Assembly (NCBI RefSeq): GCF_026001925.1
Contig: NZ_AP021869.1
Location: 1,550,001-1,614,000, forward strand
Direction of reading: 5' to 3'
Source: Vibrio gangliei
Lineage (GTDB): Bacteria; Pseudomonadota; Gammaproteobacteria; Enterobacterales; Vibrionaceae
DNA: 64,000 bases
Part shown: piece by piece, positions 17,586 to 24,925 of the stretch
How positions within the stretch are numbered: the first letter of the stretch is position 1
How the letters are laid out: each line of letters opens with the position of its first letter
The notes under the pieces: model-generated
What the model saw: only the letters and a program-made list of their open reading frames with translations
What the model was told of the DNA's origin: nothing
The model's database searches: none
Translations under genes and position numbers: made by a program

Positions 17586-18011
17586 TTATTCAGAGATCGT
17601 TTTCGACATCCAATAGAACCTATCGTCATCACTATCAACCACAAAACCCGATCTTTTATAAAGATTAAATGCAGGACTGATTCTAAATACACGCAATGTT
17701 AGCTTGTTGAAACCAGACTCCGTAGCTAACCGTTCGCATTCAGACAAAGCCGCAGCGCCAATACCTTGATTTTGATGTTTCTGACTCACCTGCAAATCAC
17801 GGATATAACAGCTCTCATCATCAAAGGCTAATCTAATCGCTCCAGCAATTTCACCATCAAATAAGATATCGATATTCGTCAGTTCACGGATTTGCTCTTC
17901 GATTTTCGAACTCTCCCAATCAACCGCATAATGCTCATAATATGAACGCATATTTAAGTAAGTGAGATTGGCTGAAGCTGCTAAATCTATTGTATTTTGA
18001 TACGTAATCAT
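17586..18011 (-). CDS. GNAT family N-acetyltransferase
   Basis: 141 aa from ATG 18011, which has CAGGG upstream; the frame also opens at a TTG (18032) that I consider less likely. The acetyl-CoA-binding motif A is seen in LQVSQKHQNQGIGAAAL (Q-x-x-G-I-G), with YIRDLQV strand before it and FNLYKRSGF motif B after it. The substrate is not predictable. It lies 71 bases after the PhzF-like gene on the same strand and is the last gene of a three-gene run (DUF1778, PhzF-like, GNAT). It does not resemble the TacT toxins usually paired with DUF1778 antitoxins. Confidence 0.85.
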   Translation of the reverse strand: MITYQNTIDLAASANLTYLNMRSYYEHYAVDWESSKIEEQIRELTNIDILFDGEIAGAIRLAFDDESCYIRDLQVSQKHQNQGIGAAALSECERLATESGFNKLTLRVFRISPAFNLYKRSGFVVDSDDDRFYWMSKTISE

Positions 18012-18082
18012 TGCTACCCTGTTGCTATACAAAAATTTTTATATCCAAGAACGTAATTGCGTTATTAAGAGTTAACCCTCAC

Positions 18083-18921: not shown

Positions 18922-19215
18922 CTACCAACGAACCCTTTCCCCAAACTCACTTATGCCACTCGCGTCTGTGAATTTGGCAGCGTCAAGCAGAGCCTGGTTC
19001 GGCGCTTTTGCTTTATCACATGCAATCATAAATTCGTCAAAAACTCGGGCTTTAACCACAATAGTTTCATACTCTTTAATGACATGAGTTGCATCTTCAT
19101 CCATAAGTCTAACTACATACTCATTGAGACTTTTTAAACCAAGTAAAGCTGTTGCTTTTTCAGCTTTTGCCTTAATCTCTTCATCAAGGCGAATATCTAA
19201 ACGTGTTGTTGCCAT
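18922..19215 (-). CDS. DUF1778 (TacA-like) antitoxin, apparently without its toxin
   Basis: 97 aa. The N-terminal ATTRLDIRLDEEIKAKAEKA is a ribbon-helix-helix DNA-binding domain typical of DUF1778 antitoxins; the C-terminal tail (AKFTDASGISEFGERVRW) is the toxin-neutralising type. The cognate GNAT toxin normally overlaps the antitoxin end, but the next gene here is a PhzF-like protein. RBS GGAG lies 5 bases before the ATG. A palindrome at 19229-19245, 14-30 bases upstream, is a likely autoregulatory operator. It may be a remnant of a TA module. Confidence 0.85.
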   Translation of the reverse strand: MATTRLDIRLDEEIKAKAEKATALLGLKSLNEYVVRLMDEDATHVIKEYETIVVKARVFDEFMIACDKAKAPNQALLDAAKFTDASGISEFGERVRW

Positions 19216-19245: not shown

Positions 19246-19310
19246 ACACTAGTGGTTATAGTGCAAATATAGAGCGCATTCAATTTGTACAGATAGTTTA
19301 CGGAAACACA

Positions 19311-19652
19311 GCCACCACGTCGATTATTCGTAATATTCCTGAGCTTGGGTATATTACCAATAAGCAAGCGGCCTCTCTTATCGGCGTTGCACCGATAACC
19401 AAAGAAAATGGCCGCTATAAAGGCAAAAGAATCATTCAAGGTGGTCGAGCCCAAGCAAGGACGGTTCTCTATATGGCAATGATGTCAGCGATGCAATGCA
19501 ACCCAGTATTTAAAGCCACTTATCAGCATCTTTTAGACGCAGGAAAACCGAAGAAAGTTGCTATTATTGCCTGCGTAAGAAATATGGTTGTAACTTTAAA
19601 TTCGATGTTAAGAGATGTCGTCATGTGGGATGAAAATAAAGCTAAAATTTAG
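19311..19652 (+). pseudogene. IS110-family transposase remnant (C-terminal part)
   Basis: An open frame without a start runs to TAG 19650-19652 and encodes the C-terminal Transposase_20 half of an IS110-family enzyme (PELGYITNKQAASLIGVAP, GGRAQARTVLYMAMMSA, RDVVMWDENKAKI). The whole N-terminal DEDD domain is missing. It lies opposite in strand to the surrounding cassettes. It is clearly different from the intact transposase at 22485-23639. The right end of the element abuts an attC stub (19665-19680), so this element also appears to have inserted into an attC; the left side has been deleted up to the DUF1778 promoter. Confidence 0.85.
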
Positions 19653-19664
19653 CTATTGACGCCA

Positions 19665-19680
19665 TACTCGTTTGTTAGCT
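19665..19680 (-). other. Truncated integron attC site (5' core only)
   Basis: On the minus strand, three bases after the Shedu stop, the sequence AGCTAACAAACGAG begins like a Vibrio attC (R'' core ending in TAAC followed by AAACG). The rest of the site is missing and IS110-remnant sequence follows at once. Confidence 0.6.
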
Positions 19681-19682
19681 TT

Positions 19683-20747
19683 TTAAAACTCGAAATCTAA
19701 CCAATCATCATTGTCTACAGAATTGTCCTCACTTTCAGTACATTGACTGGGTTCAAGTAGATTCACGAGCCTTTCACCTTGGTTCAAAAGGTGATCGTAA
19801 GTCATTATTGACAAACTCGTTAGCCTTGAATTCAAGCCATGTAGCGCTTTGTGTTTTTCAGGAGACCAATCGTAAGAACGACCAATAACAATCGTTGCTC
19901 TTGGATGATATGCAACAATTTCGGGGTGATCTGCTAACCCTTTGGATGCAACATCATTAAAGACATCCATATACCTATGGCATTGGCCAATTGCCTTAGA
20001 GACTTCAGAAGAAAAATAGAAATTCCGATGCGAACTATCGTAGTTTAAAACTTCCATATTTGGGCGCTTCAACTCGATGATATCCCTAAAGCCACCAATG
20101 ACATTGGATAACATCAAATCTAAGTGGTCATGAGGGGAGATGGCTCTAACATCGTCGTTAACGACGTAGGCATTACCAAATGCCCAAGGATATTCCTCAC
20201 ACCATTTTTGGTATATCTTTTCATCGTTTTCTTGGTTGTTCAGATGGTTACGCAATTGATTAACTGCTGACTTCATGTCTTTTAGGCGGATAGAGCCTTT
20301 TAACGCATTTGCTAATTCATCAGATAGGTCTGTATTTTCCAGATGCTTAACGATTTCTGTTTGAGATAACACTGCTGTTAACGCATTAGCAACTGATTGA
20401 GGGTCATGCTCAGCTAATTGTGCTGTACCGTCATTGACACGAATTAGAAGAAAGTCGCCCTCTGTTTCATCTTTAACCGCAACGTGAGATTTAATTGCTT
20501 CATATAGTTTGAGCAACGACCCTGCTTGTAATGACACAGACTTCTCATCAACGGGAAGCCACCCAAAAGGAGTTTTGTCTTTCTTGTACGTAATGATCTT
20601 TCCAGCAAGCTCTACGCCTTGAGATTTAGTTATATAGAATGGAACAAAGTCAATTCTTGAACGAGTGGTTTCATGGATCGTTACTGGATCACTGTACCCA
20701 ACGTTTCCTGACTTTGCTTGCTTTTTACCAATTGAGCCTACTGCCAA
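19683..20747 (-). CDS. Shedu anti-phage nuclease (SduA, DUF4263) as integron cassette
   Basis: 354 aa from TTG 20747, which has GGAGG 5 bases upstream; a further TTG at 20765 adds six residues. The C-terminal half is a DUF4263/Shedu PD-(D/E)XK nuclease: WCEEYPWAFG, then Asp210 (HLDLML), Glu225-Leu-Lys227 (RDIIELKRPN) and the conserved Gln255 in SEVSKAIGQCHRYMD. The N-terminal half is a sensing domain of unknown specificity. Shedu is a single-gene phage-defence system. The gene is bracketed by a full attC upstream (20771-20875) and an attC stub downstream, the layout of an integron cassette. Low-biased codon use contrasts with pflB. Confidence 0.85.
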   Translation of the reverse strand: MAVGSIGKKQAKSGNVGYSDPVTIHETTRSRIDFVPFYITKSQGVELAGKIITYKKDKTPFGWLPVDEKSVSLQAGSLLKLYEAIKSHVAVKDETEGDFLLIRVNDGTAQLAEHDPQSVANALTAVLSQTEIVKHLENTDLSDELANALKGSIRLKDMKSAVNQLRNHLNNQENDEKIYQKWCEEYPWAFGNAYVVNDDVRAISPHDHLDLMLSNVIGGFRDIIELKRPNMEVLNYDSSHRNFYFSSEVSKAIGQCHRYMDVFNDVASKGLADHPEIVAYHPRATIVIGRSYDWSPEKHKALHGLNSRLTSLSIMTYDHLLNQGERLVNLLEPSQCTESEDNSVDNDDWLDFEF

Positions 20748-20770
20748 ATTTACCTCCGAACTCAAAAGAA

Positions 20771-20875
20771 AGTTAACGTCACATTGAAGGGCGCTTTCAC
20801 TGGATTTTCAACAACAGCCGAACTCTAAACCACAAGTGCTAAGCGTTCGGCGTCCCTTTGAATGTTTTGTTAGAG
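20771..20875 (-). other. Integron attC site (VCR-like) after the HEPN cassette
   Basis: Read on the minus strand it begins CTCTAACAAAACATTCAAAGGG, has GCCGAACGCTTAGCAC, a central stem GCCGAAC/GTTCGGC, then CGCCCTTCAATG and ends GACGTTAACT. The outer arms CATTCAAAGGG and CCCTTCAATG are complementary with one extrahelical base, the hallmark of folded attC sites. The R'' and R' cores fit RYYYAAC and GTTRRRY at 6 of 7 positions each. It lies 5 bases after the HEPN stop and 24 bases before the Shedu start. Confidence 0.8.
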
Positions 20876-20880
20876 CACTG

Positions 20881-22344
20881 TTAAATGAGTGGTACATCAT
20901 TTGATAACACACTCAACTTATTATCTTTTTTTGCAAACTTTTCGGTGAAGTTAATAGCCAAGCATAGATATATTAATGCATGTCTCGTTTGTTTGAAAAC
21001 ATACATTCCTTTATCAACTAGCTCATCAGACGTAATTTTATACGCATAATCATGTTCGTTTTTCCAAGTAGAGAAACCTTCAAAACCAGGGTTCACAACT
21101 CTAACCCAACCGTGTTCTAGTTCATTGCGTAGTTCTCGCACTTCGAAAGCCGAATCATCAAGCCAATAAGAAGGTCTTCTCTCATCATCATCGTGCTGGG
21201 TAAAGTCTTTGCTTAACCAGAACAATGCAGTTAAAAATGGATTGTTCTGGTCTTTTAATTTTTTCTGCGTATCAAACCATTGCCGATTAAACGCAATCTT
21301 GGAGCTGTTTAATTCATAGTACTTATCTAAGAGTCTTGAGATTTTGTCTAGAACACTAAAACAGCCTTTCAAAGCGCTCTTTATTTTTTCAATGTATCCT
21401 TCGTAGATTACACCGTCTAATGTGTCTGTTAGATATTTATCTTTGTCAGTGAATTTTACGTATTTTTTATTCAACCCTTCGTAGAACAAATGACGAAAGT
21501 AGCAATACTCATTTTTCATTGATGAAAATGCCGCAGATAGATATGGGCCTTCAAAAACTGGAGTGCTATATGATGGAAAATTGAGAACATCGTGATCTAC
21601 AACCCAAGCATTTTCTAGATCATTTAATGGGTTGAGGAATAGTATATTATCTTTACACCAGCTCCGATATTTTGTTTCTTCTTTTGAATAGTCTGGCTTA
21701 TAAGGGTGAGCTAATAGATCAGGATCTTCGTCAAATGAATTTTGAACATGTTGAAGGAAGCGTCCAAATTCAGATCCTGAATCAACTTTGATACTTTCTC
21801 TAATACCATTATGATAAATTTCATCTTTAGCTAGTAGTTTTTTTGCATAGTTGTATGCATATAGCTGGTAATAATAAATATGCTCTTCATCGTATAAATA
21901 GTGAGAAATCCAAAGCAGACCTGTTGTAAGTCTATATAACCCGACTTCTTCGGCATCACCAAAATGGGAAATACCTTGTTTCCAAAGAGGAATGGCTTCA
22001 AAGGTTCTACATAATGTCTGTAGTGTATTTGCATGGTTTACTTCTACTTGAGGAAGTAGTTCATAAGCCTGACTTTTATATCGATAAAATTTCCTATGGC
22101 AAATGATAGCATTACCATAATTTGGATTGTTCCATCTGTCATTTCTATCAGAAGCTAAATGCTGGTATATATTCGACAAGTAGTAAGTCAATATACTTTT
22201 TATAATATCGGGAGCTTCACTTTCATCAGAGATGATTTTCTTTAACTCATCACAAAAACGTACTAAAGAGTCAATATCATTAGATTCAATACAAGTATCA
22301 ATGTTTCCTGCAAAAAAAGCGATCTTTTCGTTCCATTCGTCCAT
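20881..22344 (-). CDS. LA2681-like HEPN domain protein (putative ribonuclease) as integron cassette
   Basis: 487 aa. The C-terminal region has the HEPN active-site motif R-N-x3-H in LRNELEHGW (Arg406, Asn407, His411) within a helical domain, resembling the LA2681-like HEPN family. The N-terminal ~200 residues are helical and TPR-like (ANTLQTLCRTFEAIPLWKQGI; LYAYNYAKKLL), a likely sensor part. HEPN proteins of this kind are commonly metal-independent RNases in toxin or defence systems; the target is unknown. The gene is followed by an attC 5 bases after its stop and preceded by the remnant GTT/AGAC core split by the IS. AT-rich codon use differs from core genes. Confidence 0.75.
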   Translation of the reverse strand: MDEWNEKIAFFAGNIDTCIESNDIDSLVRFCDELKKIISDESEAPDIIKSILTYYLSNIYQHLASDRNDRWNNPNYGNAIICHRKFYRYKSQAYELLPQVEVNHANTLQTLCRTFEAIPLWKQGISHFGDAEEVGLYRLTTGLLWISHYLYDEEHIYYYQLYAYNYAKKLLAKDEIYHNGIRESIKVDSGSEFGRFLQHVQNSFDEDPDLLAHPYKPDYSKEETKYRSWCKDNILFLNPLNDLENAWVVDHDVLNFPSYSTPVFEGPYLSAAFSSMKNEYCYFRHLFYEGLNKKYVKFTDKDKYLTDTLDGVIYEGYIEKIKSALKGCFSVLDKISRLLDKYYELNSSKIAFNRQWFDTQKKLKDQNNPFLTALFWLSKDFTQHDDDERRPSYWLDDSAFEVRELRNELEHGWVRVVNPGFEGFSTWKNEHDYAYKITSDELVDKGMYVFKQTRHALIYLCLAINFTEKFAKKDNKLSVLSNDVPLI

Positions 22345-22408
22345 GCATTCTCTCGATTAAATGTAATGTGGATTTAGGTGGTCTAGACATAATGACTCCC
22401 ATGAAGGT

Positions 22409-22484
22409 GCTAGCCTCCAATATCGTGGGTTAGCTAAGCCAGAGCCATAATTAGTTTGCTAAAGAACTAAATTAGGAGGCTAGC
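22409..22484 (+). promoter_or_regulatory. Hairpin masking the transposase Shine-Dalgarno
   Basis: GCTAGCCTCC (22409-22418) is perfectly complementary to GGAGGCTAGC (22475-22484), which holds the GGAGG Shine-Dalgarno immediately before ATG 22485. A transcript reading in from outside would fold and block translation, a common protection of IS elements against read-through expression. Confidence 0.65.
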
Positions 22485-23639
22485 ATGAATAACGATAGCA
22501 CTATTTTTATTGGGTTAGATACCCATAAATCCTTCACCCAAGTCGCACTTTTAAAAGATAAACGTGGAGAAGCCCCTTCATCGTACAGTCGTATTCAATC
22601 AACTAAATCAGCATTTATAAAACTCAGCCAAACACTCCAATCCCAATTTCCTAAAGCTACCCTGAATTTCATTTACGAAGCTGGTCCTTGTGGATATTGG
22701 ATTTATCGATTGCTCACAAGCATTGGACACCAATGCTACATTGTTGCGCCATCTTTAATCCCCAAAGCGCCTGGCGATAAAATCAAAACCGATAAAAGAG
22801 ATGCCGCCAAATTAGCGCGCCTTTTTCGAGCAGATGAACTCAATGCCATCTATGTACCTGAAGCAGAAGATGAAGCTATACGTGATTTATCTCGCGCACG
22901 AGAAACGGCAATGAAAGATTTAAAAGATGCCAAATTCCAACTCAAAGGCTTCTTACTACGAAATAATATTACGGCAACGGTCAAAGATAACTGGTCTAAA
23001 AAACATTTAAGATGGTTAACAGAATTAGTGCTCCCTCATCACAGCCAACAAATTGTGCTGCAAGAGATGATTCAAATCATCTCGGAACGAATGCAACGAT
23101 TACAAAGGCTCGATAATGAGCTGCTATATCAAGTTAAAAACTGGCGTTACTACCCTGTTGTAAAAGCGATTCAAGCGATGAGAGGCGTTCGTTTACTCGT
23201 GGCATTAGGAACCATCGCTGAACTGGGGGATTTAAGGCGTTTTGACCACCCGAGAAAGCTCATGTCCTACCTTGGGCTTGTCCCATCTGAGCACTCTAGT
23301 GGACAAAAACGAAGACAAGGCAGTATTACAAAATGTGGCAATAAACGAGCTCGACGATTATTAGTTGAAAGTGCACATACTTATAAACACAAACCCAATA
23401 TCTCAGCAGAGCTGCAAATACGACAAGAAGACTTATCAAAAGAAATTATTGATATTGCTTGGCAAGCTCAGCTTCGGTTATGTCGGCGCTACCAACGATT
23501 AATGTTTTTAGGAAAGCACCGCAGTGTCGTCGTCACAGCGATAGCCCGTGAAATGGTCGCATTTATTTGGGCGATTGCTCGGGAGGTGGTAATCATACCG
23601 ATTGATCCACGCCAAAGAATATCAAGGTTACCAGTATGA
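22485..23639 (+). CDS. IS110-family transposase (IS1111 group), intact
   Basis: 384 aa. The N-terminal DEDD RuvC-like domain shows IGLDTHK, YEAGPCGYW and KTDKRDAAKLARL with the expected acidic residues; a coiled-coil-like linker follows; the C-terminal Transposase_20 domain has MRGVRLLVALGTIAELGDL and LGLVPSEHSSGQKRRQGSITK, which carries the serine nucleophile region. All motifs and length are intact, so the enzyme may be active. IS110-family recombinases are guided by a bridge RNA; in the IS1111 group this lies in the right non-coding end, matching the structured region at 23649-23865. The gene is antisense to the cassettes. Confidence 0.93.
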   Translation: MNNDSTIFIGLDTHKSFTQVALLKDKRGEAPSSYSRIQSTKSAFIKLSQTLQSQFPKATLNFIYEAGPCGYWIYRLLTSIGHQCYIVAPSLIPKAPGDKIKTDKRDAAKLARLFRADELNAIYVPEAEDEAIRDLSRARETAMKDLKDAKFQLKGFLLRNNITATVKDNWSKKHLRWLTELVLPHHSQQIVLQEMIQIISERMQRLQRLDNELLYQVKNWRYYPVVKAIQAMRGVRLLVALGTIAELGDLRRFDHPRKLMSYLGLVPSEHSSGQKRRQGSITKCGNKRARRLLVESAHTYKHKPNISAELQIRQEDLSKEIIDIAWQAQLRLCRRYQRLMFLGKHRSVVVTAIAREMVAFIWAIAREVVIIPIDPRQRISRLPV

Positions 23640-23648
23640 ATAATAAAT

Positions 23649-23865
23649 TAGTGTTAGCGCAACGCATTAAGCATCGGGTGTGGCATAAACTCCGACGGCG
23701 TTAGGATGGCAATAGCCTAACGGCTATTGAACCACGAGCATAGACTGCAGACAGGTGCCACGACGGAATAAGTAAGGTAAGCTCTGCTCACTTTAGAGTG
23801 AGTAATCTACGAATACCAGCATGATAACCGACGAAAGTACTTGCTTGAGCAATGCGTTAACACTA
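23649..23865 (+). ncRNA. Candidate bridge (seek) RNA of the IS1111-group element
   Basis: The non-coding segment after the transposase is closed by a long-range pairing: TAGTGTTA plus AACGCATTAAGC (23649-23672) with GCTTGAGCAATGCG-TTAACACTA (23843-23865). Inside lie stems CGTTAGG/CCTAACG (23699-23705 with 23716-23722) and CTCACT/AGTGAG near 23786. The segment GGCGTTAG at 23697-23704 equals the attC R' core context into which this element is inserted. Location on the 3' side fits the IS1111 group. Existence as an RNA is inferred. Confidence 0.6.
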
Positions 23866-23940
23866 TCTCTTTTTTAAAGAAAAATGCCCAAAATAACTGG
23901 GTAGAATTTTTGCGCTCTACTTGACAGTGGGAGTCATACC

Positions 23941-24062
23941 AACGCCCAATTAAGGTGTGAAGCACGCAATACCGATGCTACCGTATACCGCCTTAATCAC
24001 TAAAATTAACGCATACCAAAAATGCCACGCGTGTTGAATCACTCTTAAGTTGTTTGTTATGT
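23941..24062 (-). other. Integron attC site (VCR-like), split at its 3' core by the IS
   Basis: On the minus strand it starts ACATAACAAACAACTTAAGAG, contains CAACACGCGTGGCATTTTT and GGTATTGCGTGCTTCAC, and ends CTTAATTGGGCGTT, then continues across the IS as AGAC. The GCGTGGCATTTTT segment and the CTTAA...GGGCGTT end are characteristic of Vibrio attC sites. Length is about 122 bp plus 4. It begins 12 bases after the stop of the 110-aa cassette gene. Confidence 0.85.
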
Positions 24063-24074
24063 ATATACTTGCTG

Positions 24075-24407
24075 CTATTCTTGGAGCCAAGAAATTTCAT
24101 TTATCAACTTACACTCAAGGCTCGTCTGCAGCATTGATCTGGAACCTTCCTCTTTGTTACCGTTTGCATAAGTGTCAATAAGAGAATCCAAGACCAATAT
24201 AATATCGTTGACTTGCTCATCACTTAAGTCAAATTCTGCTTTGTAGTTCGGCGTGTTAACTACTTGCCATTGTTTTGCGTCAATATTTATATTTCTCGAA
24301 TAGAACGATGATAAGCTTTTCTTATTATCCAGGGTCACTGTAGCTTTCAACTCTGTAACAGGTTGCTCTATAGATAATTTTTCAATAGCTAAAGTACATT
24401 TTTTCAT
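24075..24407 (-). CDS. Unknown protein, first integron cassette
   Basis: 110 aa that I do not recognise. It starts at ATG 24407 with TTTGGAGGAA well placed 9 bases upstream. The N-terminal half is predicted beta-rich (LAIEKLSIEQPVTELKATVTL), the C-terminal half helical (DLSDEQVNDIILVLDSLIDTYANG). No signal peptide or membrane segment is visible. It is immediately followed by an attC and lies nearest the integrase relic, so it would be the first, most recently acquired cassette of the array. The attI site should lie between it and intI (24408-24644), but I could not define one. Confidence 0.7.
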   Translation of the reverse strand: MKKCTLAIEKLSIEQPVTELKATVTLDNKKSLSSFYSRNINIDAKQWQVVNTPNYKAEFDLSDEQVNDIILVLDSLIDTYANGNKEEGSRSMLQTSLECKLINEISWLQE

Positions 24408-24614
24408 TCTGCATTTCCTCCAAATATATAAAGCTTATTAGACGGCAAAGTGCCGCTTTTCCTGACAACTCTTTGCCTGTTTAGTTTTTCCACTATACAG
24501 CAAGTAGCCCTCAAGCCTATGTATAGAAATGACTATTTGTTTCATTCTTTAGATATGAATCAGAAAAGAAGGCACTTTTCCTGTTATCTATTGCTGAAAC
24601 CCGACACCCTTAGC

Positions 24615-24644: not shown

Positions 24645-24809
24645 ATGAAATCTCCTTTTTTAACTTATATCCATGAATTTATGGTTAGCCGCCACTATGC
24701 AAATAAAACGATCAAATCGTATTTATATTGGGTACAACTATTCATAATTATCAGTCGATATTTTGATATGAAATATAAATTCTTGTGCATTGAAGTAATA
24801 GCAATATAA
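24645..24809 (+). pseudogene. Integron integrase (IntI) relic, N-terminal ~45 residues only
   Basis: The frame from ATG 24645 (AAGG 7 bases upstream) encodes MKSPFLTYIHEFMVSRHYA and NKTIKSYLYWVQLFI, which resembles the N-terminal core-binding domain of Vibrio integron integrases (V. cholerae IntIA begins MKSQFLLSVREFM, with YYAKKTIEAYLHWI). After about residue 45 similarity stops and the frame ends at 24809; the catalytic domain with the Arg-His-Arg-Tyr residues is absent. The orientation, divergent from the cassettes, and the LexA box are as expected for a chromosomal integron. A palindromic repeat (24811-24925) abuts the break and may have been involved in the deletion. Confidence 0.82.
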
Positions 24810-24810
24810 A

Positions 24811-24925
24811 TAGGAGATTCTGAATTGCGCTCGTACCTCACTTTTCAGAATGACAGGAAATATTAAGTTTTTTAGGGCGTCATTCCGTACAACGAGCGCA
24901 GCGAGTGAAGATACGGAATCTCCTA
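24811..24925. repeat. Palindromic intergenic repeat, two units (copy B)
   Basis: Unit 1 (24811-24854) runs from TAGGAGATTCTGAA to TCAGAATGAC; unit 2 (24879-24925) runs from GTCATTCCGTA to TACGGAATCTCCTA in the opposite sense. Unit 1 shares an exact 17-mer, in inverse orientation, with copy A at 2078-2094. It follows immediately after the broken integrase gene. The remaining bases to kdsB hold a terminator and no gene. Confidence 0.7.

Follow-up and report, generated by a model that had tools for sequence, protein, structure and literature searches.

How phage-defence genes leave the integron reservoir and become permanent is, to our knowledge, not settled, and one locus of Vibrio gangliei raises this question in a concrete form. 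The locus lies in a window of 64,000 nucleotides (C1:1550001-1614000 of genome G000, which has three contigs), where three gene cassettes stand on the minus strand beside a truncated integron integrase. With a probability of about 0.78, we consider it what is left of a sedentary chromosomal integron of Vibrio: its integrase gene has been shortened to an N-terminal stub, and its final two cassettes code for a predicted HEPN RNase and a Shedu-family protein, both likely anti-phage genes kept by selection. According to PMC12409362, Darracq 2025 and Getz 2025 describe the sedentary chromosomal integrons of Vibrio as reservoirs of anti-phage genes, and the theme of defence systems in sedentary-integron cassettes, which a first-pass annotation of this DNA had raised, is by that source established for Vibrio.

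Read along the minus strand from the integrase side, the locus is composed of a gene for a 110-amino-acid (aa) protein, its attC site, an insertion sequence (IS) of the IS1111 type on the opposite strand, the gene of the 487-aa HEPN protein, a second attC, the Shedu gene, a stub of an attC and the remnant of an IS110-type element. The first-pass annotation had described three minus-strand units, each ending in an attC or its stub; all of them are present, and their coordinates and content had been given correctly. The IS1111 element between the 110-aa unit and the HEPN unit is an addition to that account.

The question is first whether these units are cassettes. Because the Rfam scan of the window at gathering thresholds gave 0 matches and so no attC model, a covariance model (R1) was built for this analysis from 20 attC sites, 18 from the other arrays of the genome and two from Marinomonas, with the sites of the window excluded. 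R1 detected the attC of cassette 1 at 23939..24060 (minus strand; 100 bits, E 6.1e-24), where the IS1111 element is inserted just after the GTT, and the attC of cassette 2 at 20773..20873 (minus strand; 39.3 bits, E 6.4e-8). The first-pass annotation had placed the sites at 23941-24062 and 20771-20875 and had staked its reading on a covariance model finding them; both were recovered. Its stop-to-attC gaps of 12, 5 and 3 bases fit its own coordinates, and the boundaries of R1 give the first two as 14 and 7. The only remaining match of R1 in the window up to E 10 reached 11.7 bits (E 1.2). The attC of cassette 1 shares up to 93% identity with attCs in other genomes of the genus. Behind the Shedu gene only an R''-like box is left (19669..19679, minus strand), recognised by sequence with no R1 match, and the same stub exists in two other Vibrio genomes, G184 and G066. 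At least two attC sites without a complete integrase, as counted by R1 and not by IntegronFinder, place the locus with CALIN or degraded sedentary integrons.

Could attC-like sequences stand near unrelated genes by chance? The folding energy of the two sites, which is no lower than that of shuffled sequences, would agree with this. Since R1 also contains 11 base pairs only and scores mostly by sequence, the identity of the sites as attCs rests mostly on sequence. Chance is nevertheless hardly conceivable, given E-values of 6e-24 and 6e-8 from a model without the window sites, and homology breaks in other lineages that fall on the cassette boundaries.

Cassette 3 holds a Shedu (SduA) gene of 360 codons (19683..20765, minus strand), for which the TTG at 20747, behind a GGAGG, is the more likely start. 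Its product scored 590.6 bits with PADLOC PDLC00402 and 55.6 bits with PF14082 (cut-off 27), bearing out the Shedu nuclease family claimed earlier. The DUF4263/SduA_C domain carries the PD-(D/E)xK residues: D228, E231 and K233 were invariant in 25 aligned sequences, and these we take to be the catalytic ones. Matches were found in nine of 196 genomes of the genus. Three of them are close, namely the window's own and those in G184 and G066 (98% protein identity), and the other six have 25-30% identity. In G184 and G066 the gene stands behind an attC (53.6 and 32.1 bits, neither of them in the R1 training set), so Shedu does occur as a cassette in other Vibrio arrays, a check that the first-pass annotation had proposed; after the gene, all three close copies have no attC. 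In the whole class, two of 369 genomes matched at E 1e-40, one being the window's own. There was no match among phage records and four among plasmid records, all below 60% identity. In genome G442 (L099 2675-3520), Shedu is followed by a DUF6602 protein with PADLOC PD-(D/E)xK and NucC-type matches.

Cassette 2 (20881..22344, minus strand) encodes a protein of 487 aa with a helical, TPR-like N-terminal part and an HEPN_LA2681 domain, a predicted RNase. The match to PF18733 (163 bits, cut-off 27) confirmed the LA2681-like HEPN protein of the first-pass annotation, and the RNxxxH motif is in place: R406, E410 and H411 were invariant and N407 nearly so among 51 aligned sequences. The AlphaFold model has a pLDDT of 88; a fold search with it revealed nothing at E 0.001 or better, and the weak matches shown include many TPR proteins. 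In the protein database 682 relatives were found at E 1e-3, of which 17 were 61-95% identical at about full length. Only three of the 196 genus genomes matched, the window's own and two at 28% identity. One phage record (29% identity) and 14 plasmid records (all below 60%) also matched.

A single scan of the genome collection revealed one locus with a close copy of the HEPN gene, and it lies outside Vibrio, in Marinomonas gallaica. The copy has 96% DNA identity over 1533 aligned bases; the likeness starts at the cassette junction and stops about 20 bases inside the attC. As to whether the gene occurs as a cassette elsewhere, it does so in M. gallaica, with none close in the other sampled genus genomes. 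The M. gallaica attC scored 50 bits by R1, as a member of its training set, and its centre (L030 9472-9567) differs by eye from that of the window site (20773-20873). An HEPN cassette with two different attCs is a natural case for studying how genes exchange them.

From their families, phage defence by both genes is likely, and for the HEPN protein both RNase activity and a defence role are predicted from its superfamily. Most HEPN domains are described as RNases, with LA2681 listed as TPR-fused (PMC3710099). For Shedu, one protein with a PD-(D/E)XK-type domain is described as making up the whole anti-phage system (PMC12409362). The two genes might instead serve another role, such as a general stress response or the stabilising of the array as toxins. 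Some toxin-antitoxin systems contain HEPN domains, and for the HEPN proteins of integrons a function as dormancy RNases has been proposed (PMC3710099). We consider such a role unlikely in view of the description of Shedu just given and of the two cassettes themselves, which contain no further open reading frame (ORF) of at least 60 aa, so that no antitoxin partner was seen.

Whatever their exact role, both proteins have low ratios of non-synonymous to synonymous substitution rates (dN/dS, omega), which points to selection on them. Between the window and G184, Shedu has 31 synonymous and 7 non-synonymous changes (omega 0.056). Between G184 and G066, both of which already have the broken attC, there are 9 and 5, respectively (omega 0.15, p 7e-4). 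For HEPN, the comparison of the window with Marinomonas gave 26.5 synonymous and 25.5 non-synonymous changes (omega 0.22, p 9e-7).

That the array descends from an integron resident at this site is indicated by the integrase. The 54-aa ORF at 24645..24809 (plus strand) is a truncated integron integrase, an N-terminal stub matching positions 1-35 of 315 in TIGR02249 (E 2.1e-5, ORF taken from 24633). It also matches residues 2-34 of PDB 2a3v, the integrase structure from V. cholerae (E 4.2e-5). Beside the array there is only this stub, not the intact intI of a complete integron, and it adjoins kdsB. In G182, msbA, lpxK and kdsB (gene names assigned by eye, from shared synteny) precede an intact integrase (TIGR02249 469 bits, cut-off 265), a 125-aa ORF and the contig end. 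Of 34 residues, the stub has 20 in common with this integrase and 15 with the intact integrase of its own genome. In G041, the gene after kdsB is a 378-aa ORF that has an attC (70 bits), and there is no integrase among the nine ORFs listed. Because of these arrangements, kdsB is likely the home of this integron in the clade, with the window copy decayed, a descent that rests on two relatives, G182 and G041. The intact integrase (G182), the stub (window) and the site with none listed (G041) would then present possible decay steps side by side. A shortened integrase was also observed in G052 (L096 2910-3416; 168-aa ORF, TIGR02249 202 bits against the cut-off of 265), beside infC- and rplT-like ORFs (by eye) and with five attCs in the stretch.

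The first-pass annotation had called the array frozen. This is exact for Shedu, whose attC is lost, but needs to be qualified for the other two cassettes. Their attC cores are kept, and intact integrases of 327 aa are encoded at three other places in the genome, of which one is on C1 and two are on the 118-kb contig C3. The two on C3 (25062-26009 and 47508-48455) are near-identical and about 22 kb apart, one identical to the chromosomal copy and one a residue off. The C1 integrase scored 400 bits with TIGR02249 (cut-off 265) and stands first in an array for which R1 counted, in two 20-kb stretches, 16 attCs with E-values of at most 1e-5, including 11 that belong to its training set. With two attC cores kept and intact integrases encoded, recombination in trans is possible, and the array might be no relic in practice, its cassettes still being excised and inserted by integrases from elsewhere. 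We regard this as a serious but minority possibility. Just three cassettes are left at the locus, and the intact integrase, 45% identical to that of G182 and with 15 of 34 residues shared with the stub, against 20 of 34 for G182, is thus of another type. The segment of IS and HEPN gene has two attCs and could still be excised by an integrase supplied in trans. Shedu could not, and homologous recombination or another route would be its only remaining means of moving.

Several observations weigh against the reading of the locus as a decayed sedentary integron with selected defence cassettes. The folding energies of the two attCs do not set them apart from shuffles, either on the minus strand (z -0.84 and -1.58) or on the plus strand (z 0.53 and -0.66). 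No attI was identified at the locus, and no attC was found within 4.3 kb of sequence from G182, whose contig stops shortly beyond the integrase gene. PADLOC gave no match for the HEPN protein. A comparison of Shedu with solved structures by sequence gave no useful match, only two unrelated chains at E 0.9. Finally, dN/dS averages both lineages and is not assignable to the time after the window array decayed.

The remnant integron has been further changed by two IS elements, both in attC sites. The IS1111-type element (22385..23940, plus strand) is intact, 1556 bp long, with a transposase of 384 aa at 22485-23639 (NF033542 265 bits). IS1111 elements are described with subterminal repeats of 11-13 bp, extensions of 7 and 3 bp and a downstream non-coding region (PMC11187229). 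The window element has 10-bp subterminal inverted repeats with 7/3-bp extensions, and its non-coding region is 301 nt downstream versus 100 nt upstream. By its DEDD transposase, its repeats and extensions, its downstream non-coding region and its insertion at an attC end, it belongs to the attC-targeting IS1111 group, the repeat being slightly short. The genome contains three copies, each abutting an attC end, and their identity to one another suggests recent movement. After excision of the element in silico, the window junction differs from the Marinomonas junction in two of 48 bases from the GTT into the gene (by eye). A guide match between the non-coding region and the attC was not significant: the best was 8 nt, a length that 488 of 2000 shuffles also attained.

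The second element is a 3' remnant of the IS110 type (19302..19668, plus strand) joined to the Shedu attC stub, with 73-79% identity to plasmid IS110 elements (among the matches listed, 15 of the 48 matched plasmid records). In all three plasmid copies that were fetched from these 48 records (L055, L056 and L057), the IS110 right end is joined to an R'' box as in the window; two of them, L056 and L057, have their left end within an attC arm as well (by eye). The same right end is left behind Shedu in G184 and G066. It was probably such an element that broke the Shedu attC. We did not adopt the shared stub as proof of one ancestral insertion, since these elements hit one fixed base and repeat insertion is possible; one ancestral and repeated fixed-base insertions cannot be told apart.

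With its attC broken, has the Shedu cassette stopped moving? Between G184 and G066, dS is 0.04-0.05 in three cassette genes versus 0.785 in the neighbouring permease gene, and high identity reaches about 300 bases into the latter. In 100-column steps over L040 6065-9561, identity was at least 95% in 32 of 35, the other three having 92, 94 and 83% (the last at the attC); in the nine steps beyond 9561 it is down to 63-89%. From the low dS of the cassettes and the identity running into the permease gene, we conclude that the block passed across together with its flanking DNA, homologous recombination being the simplest route. Horizontal movement there thus went on despite the loss of cassette mobility. 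The window's own Shedu has no such shared flank.

The first-pass annotation had also suggested a small defence array. Two defence-type cassettes do stand side by side; a cooperating unit does not follow, as the Marinomonas HEPN cassette has no adjacent Shedu (by eye). The corresponding explanation would be that HEPN and Shedu form a cooperating two-nuclease pair, cutting RNA and DNA, kept adjacent by selection. Directly upstream of Shedu, G184 and G066 have a gene for a 308-aa protein in which two RNxxxH motifs were seen by eye, and it is notable that Shedu follows directly behind an HEPN-type gene in both known cassette arrangements (2/2), that of the window and that of G184/G066. However, the two arrangements were noticed after the fact, and G184 and G066 count once, the block having passed between their lineages. 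The 308-aa protein itself stays under every Pfam cut-off, with sub-threshold matches to DUF3644, RiboL-PSP-HEPN and DUF4145 and weak PADLOC matches to PDC-S19 and Csx1/Csm6, and it has no significant similarity to the window HEPN protein (E 0.09).

The RNxxxH motif is rare among cassettes, being present in 5 of 410 distinct cassette ORFs, which speaks for the pair. This base rate comes from 20 array stretches in 14 genomes, picked around attC matches (521 attCs by R1, 523 by the counting profile). Of 502 intervals, 83 had no ORF and 419 had one of about 50 codons or more, and dropping nine repeats left 410. The count overlooks HEPN proteins without the N. One of the five ORFs is above the HEPN cut-off, one is a sub-threshold HEPN, one has a weak PADLOC RTasHEPN match and two have neither; all five were scanned in Pfam and four in PADLOC, one of the two unmatched ORFs being outside the latter scan. 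Other genomes speak against the pair. The 308-aa protein is present in four of the 196 genus genomes, and neighbourhoods were compared in G184, G066 and G029, with the fourth genome, G195, left out. In G029 it stands behind two attCs as a cassette, yet this genome has no Shedu match anywhere. The G442 Shedu (53% identical, no attC match) has no recognisable HEPN gene directly upstream. An obligate HEPN-Shedu pair was rejected from the Marinomonas, G029 and G442 arrangements, and a cooperating pair we judge quite improbable.

A bolder idea joins these observations: attC-targeting, RNA-guided IS elements might act as locks that fix mobile defence cassettes as chromosomal immune genes. In three genomes and at two chromosomal sites, an IS110-type element would have broken the attC of Shedu at an identical base, each time behind an HEPN RNase cassette. 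Homologous recombination would then have carried the locked HEPN-Shedu block from species to species as a defence unit of two nucleases. In this full form we offer it as a long shot.

How would the two genes work in their present place? On infection, Shedu would cut phage DNA and the HEPN protein RNA, possibly stopping growth. The HEPN leader has 40 bases, and in the stretch scanned upstream of the gene no consensus promoter was found on its strand. A weak match (9/12) at 20949-20920 lies inside the HEPN gene, upstream of Shedu. The promoter-consensus scan gave 8 sites versus 15.5 in shuffles, so that neither its matches nor its gaps prove anything. Since no consensus promoter was found in the short leaders, expression of HEPN and Shedu may depend on read-through or cryptic promoters. 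The IS1111 element carries three terminator-like hairpins on the HEPN/Shedu strand (6 in all versus 3.0 in shuffles), and its recent-looking insertion probably weakened the supply from the integron's own promoter.

Cassette 1 (24075..24407, minus strand) encodes the 110-aa protein, for which there is no assigned function and no Pfam family above cut-off; its AlphaFold model is weak (pLDDT 69). The protein database contains five relatives besides itself, the named ones from V. parahaemolyticus and V. vulnificus. Two of the 196 genus genomes match, one of them its own and the other, G141, with a 26-residue piece beside a similar attC. Upstream of this cassette lies the segment 24429-24577, of which the genome has two further copies, at C2:721137-721285 (77%) and C1:575686-575802 (75%); it may be a copy of attI or promoter or a plain repeat. 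Close downstream of the C1 copy are a lone GNAT-like ORF, which has an attC (46.9 bits), and a toxin-antitoxin-like gene pair, the ORF and the pair both being judged by eye. A short intergenic repeat near kdsB (24812-24855) has two further occurrences in G041 and another close to the lone cassette at C1:575.6 kb. On the other side of the array, a TacA-type antitoxin gene (18922-19215, PF08681) has no adjacent GNAT toxin; a PhzF-like gene separates it from the GNAT gene at 17586-18032. The tRNA scan of the window gave none.

The first-pass annotation was thus right in substance, with real cassettes, Shedu and an LA2681-type HEPN protein, and a truncated integrase adjoining; the frozen state, the defence role of HEPN and the cooperation within the array have been qualified. 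Among the papers searched, 13 mention at least three of integron, phage defense, Shedu and HEPN, and none mentions all four; LA2681 appears in one. The locus is well supported and not categorically new, and its decay is unusually legible. HEPN, as a cassette with a whole attC, adjoins Shedu, whose attC breaks off at an IS remnant, and the cassette block of G184 and G066 has moved together with flanking chromosomal DNA. This makes a concrete case for asking whether attC-targeting IS elements domesticate defence cassettes. The LA2681-type HEPN protein, which PADLOC does not match, is a candidate defence gene.

Compared with known systems, the locus is most like the Vibrio sedentary integrons with anti-phage genes (PMC12409362), having chromosomal attC cassettes of which some carry defence-type genes, and differs by its integrase stub, the three cassettes left and the two IS elements in attC sites. 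It resembles the CALIN of IntegronFinder 2.0 (PMC9024848), a cluster of attC sites that lacks an integrase, in having two attC sites while a complete integrase is absent from the locus, whereas a recognisable integrase stub is kept in the window, so that the decay can be read. ISKpn4 and ISPst6, the attC-targeting IS1111 elements in PMC11187229, resemble the window element in their 7/3-bp repeat extensions, downstream non-coding region and insertion at one attC end; the window repeat is 10 bp versus the usual 11-13, and its guide match to attC is not significant. To the LA2681 HEPN family (PMC3710099; PF18733), an HEPN with a conserved Rx4-6H motif that is listed as fused to TPR, the window adds a member that is an integron cassette, and the same paper names another integron HEPN, PDB 3jrt. 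Integron cassettes carrying Shedu are known from Xanthomonas (PMC12444791), another genus; the window Shedu likewise belongs to an integron array, but without its attC it is no longer a mobile cassette.

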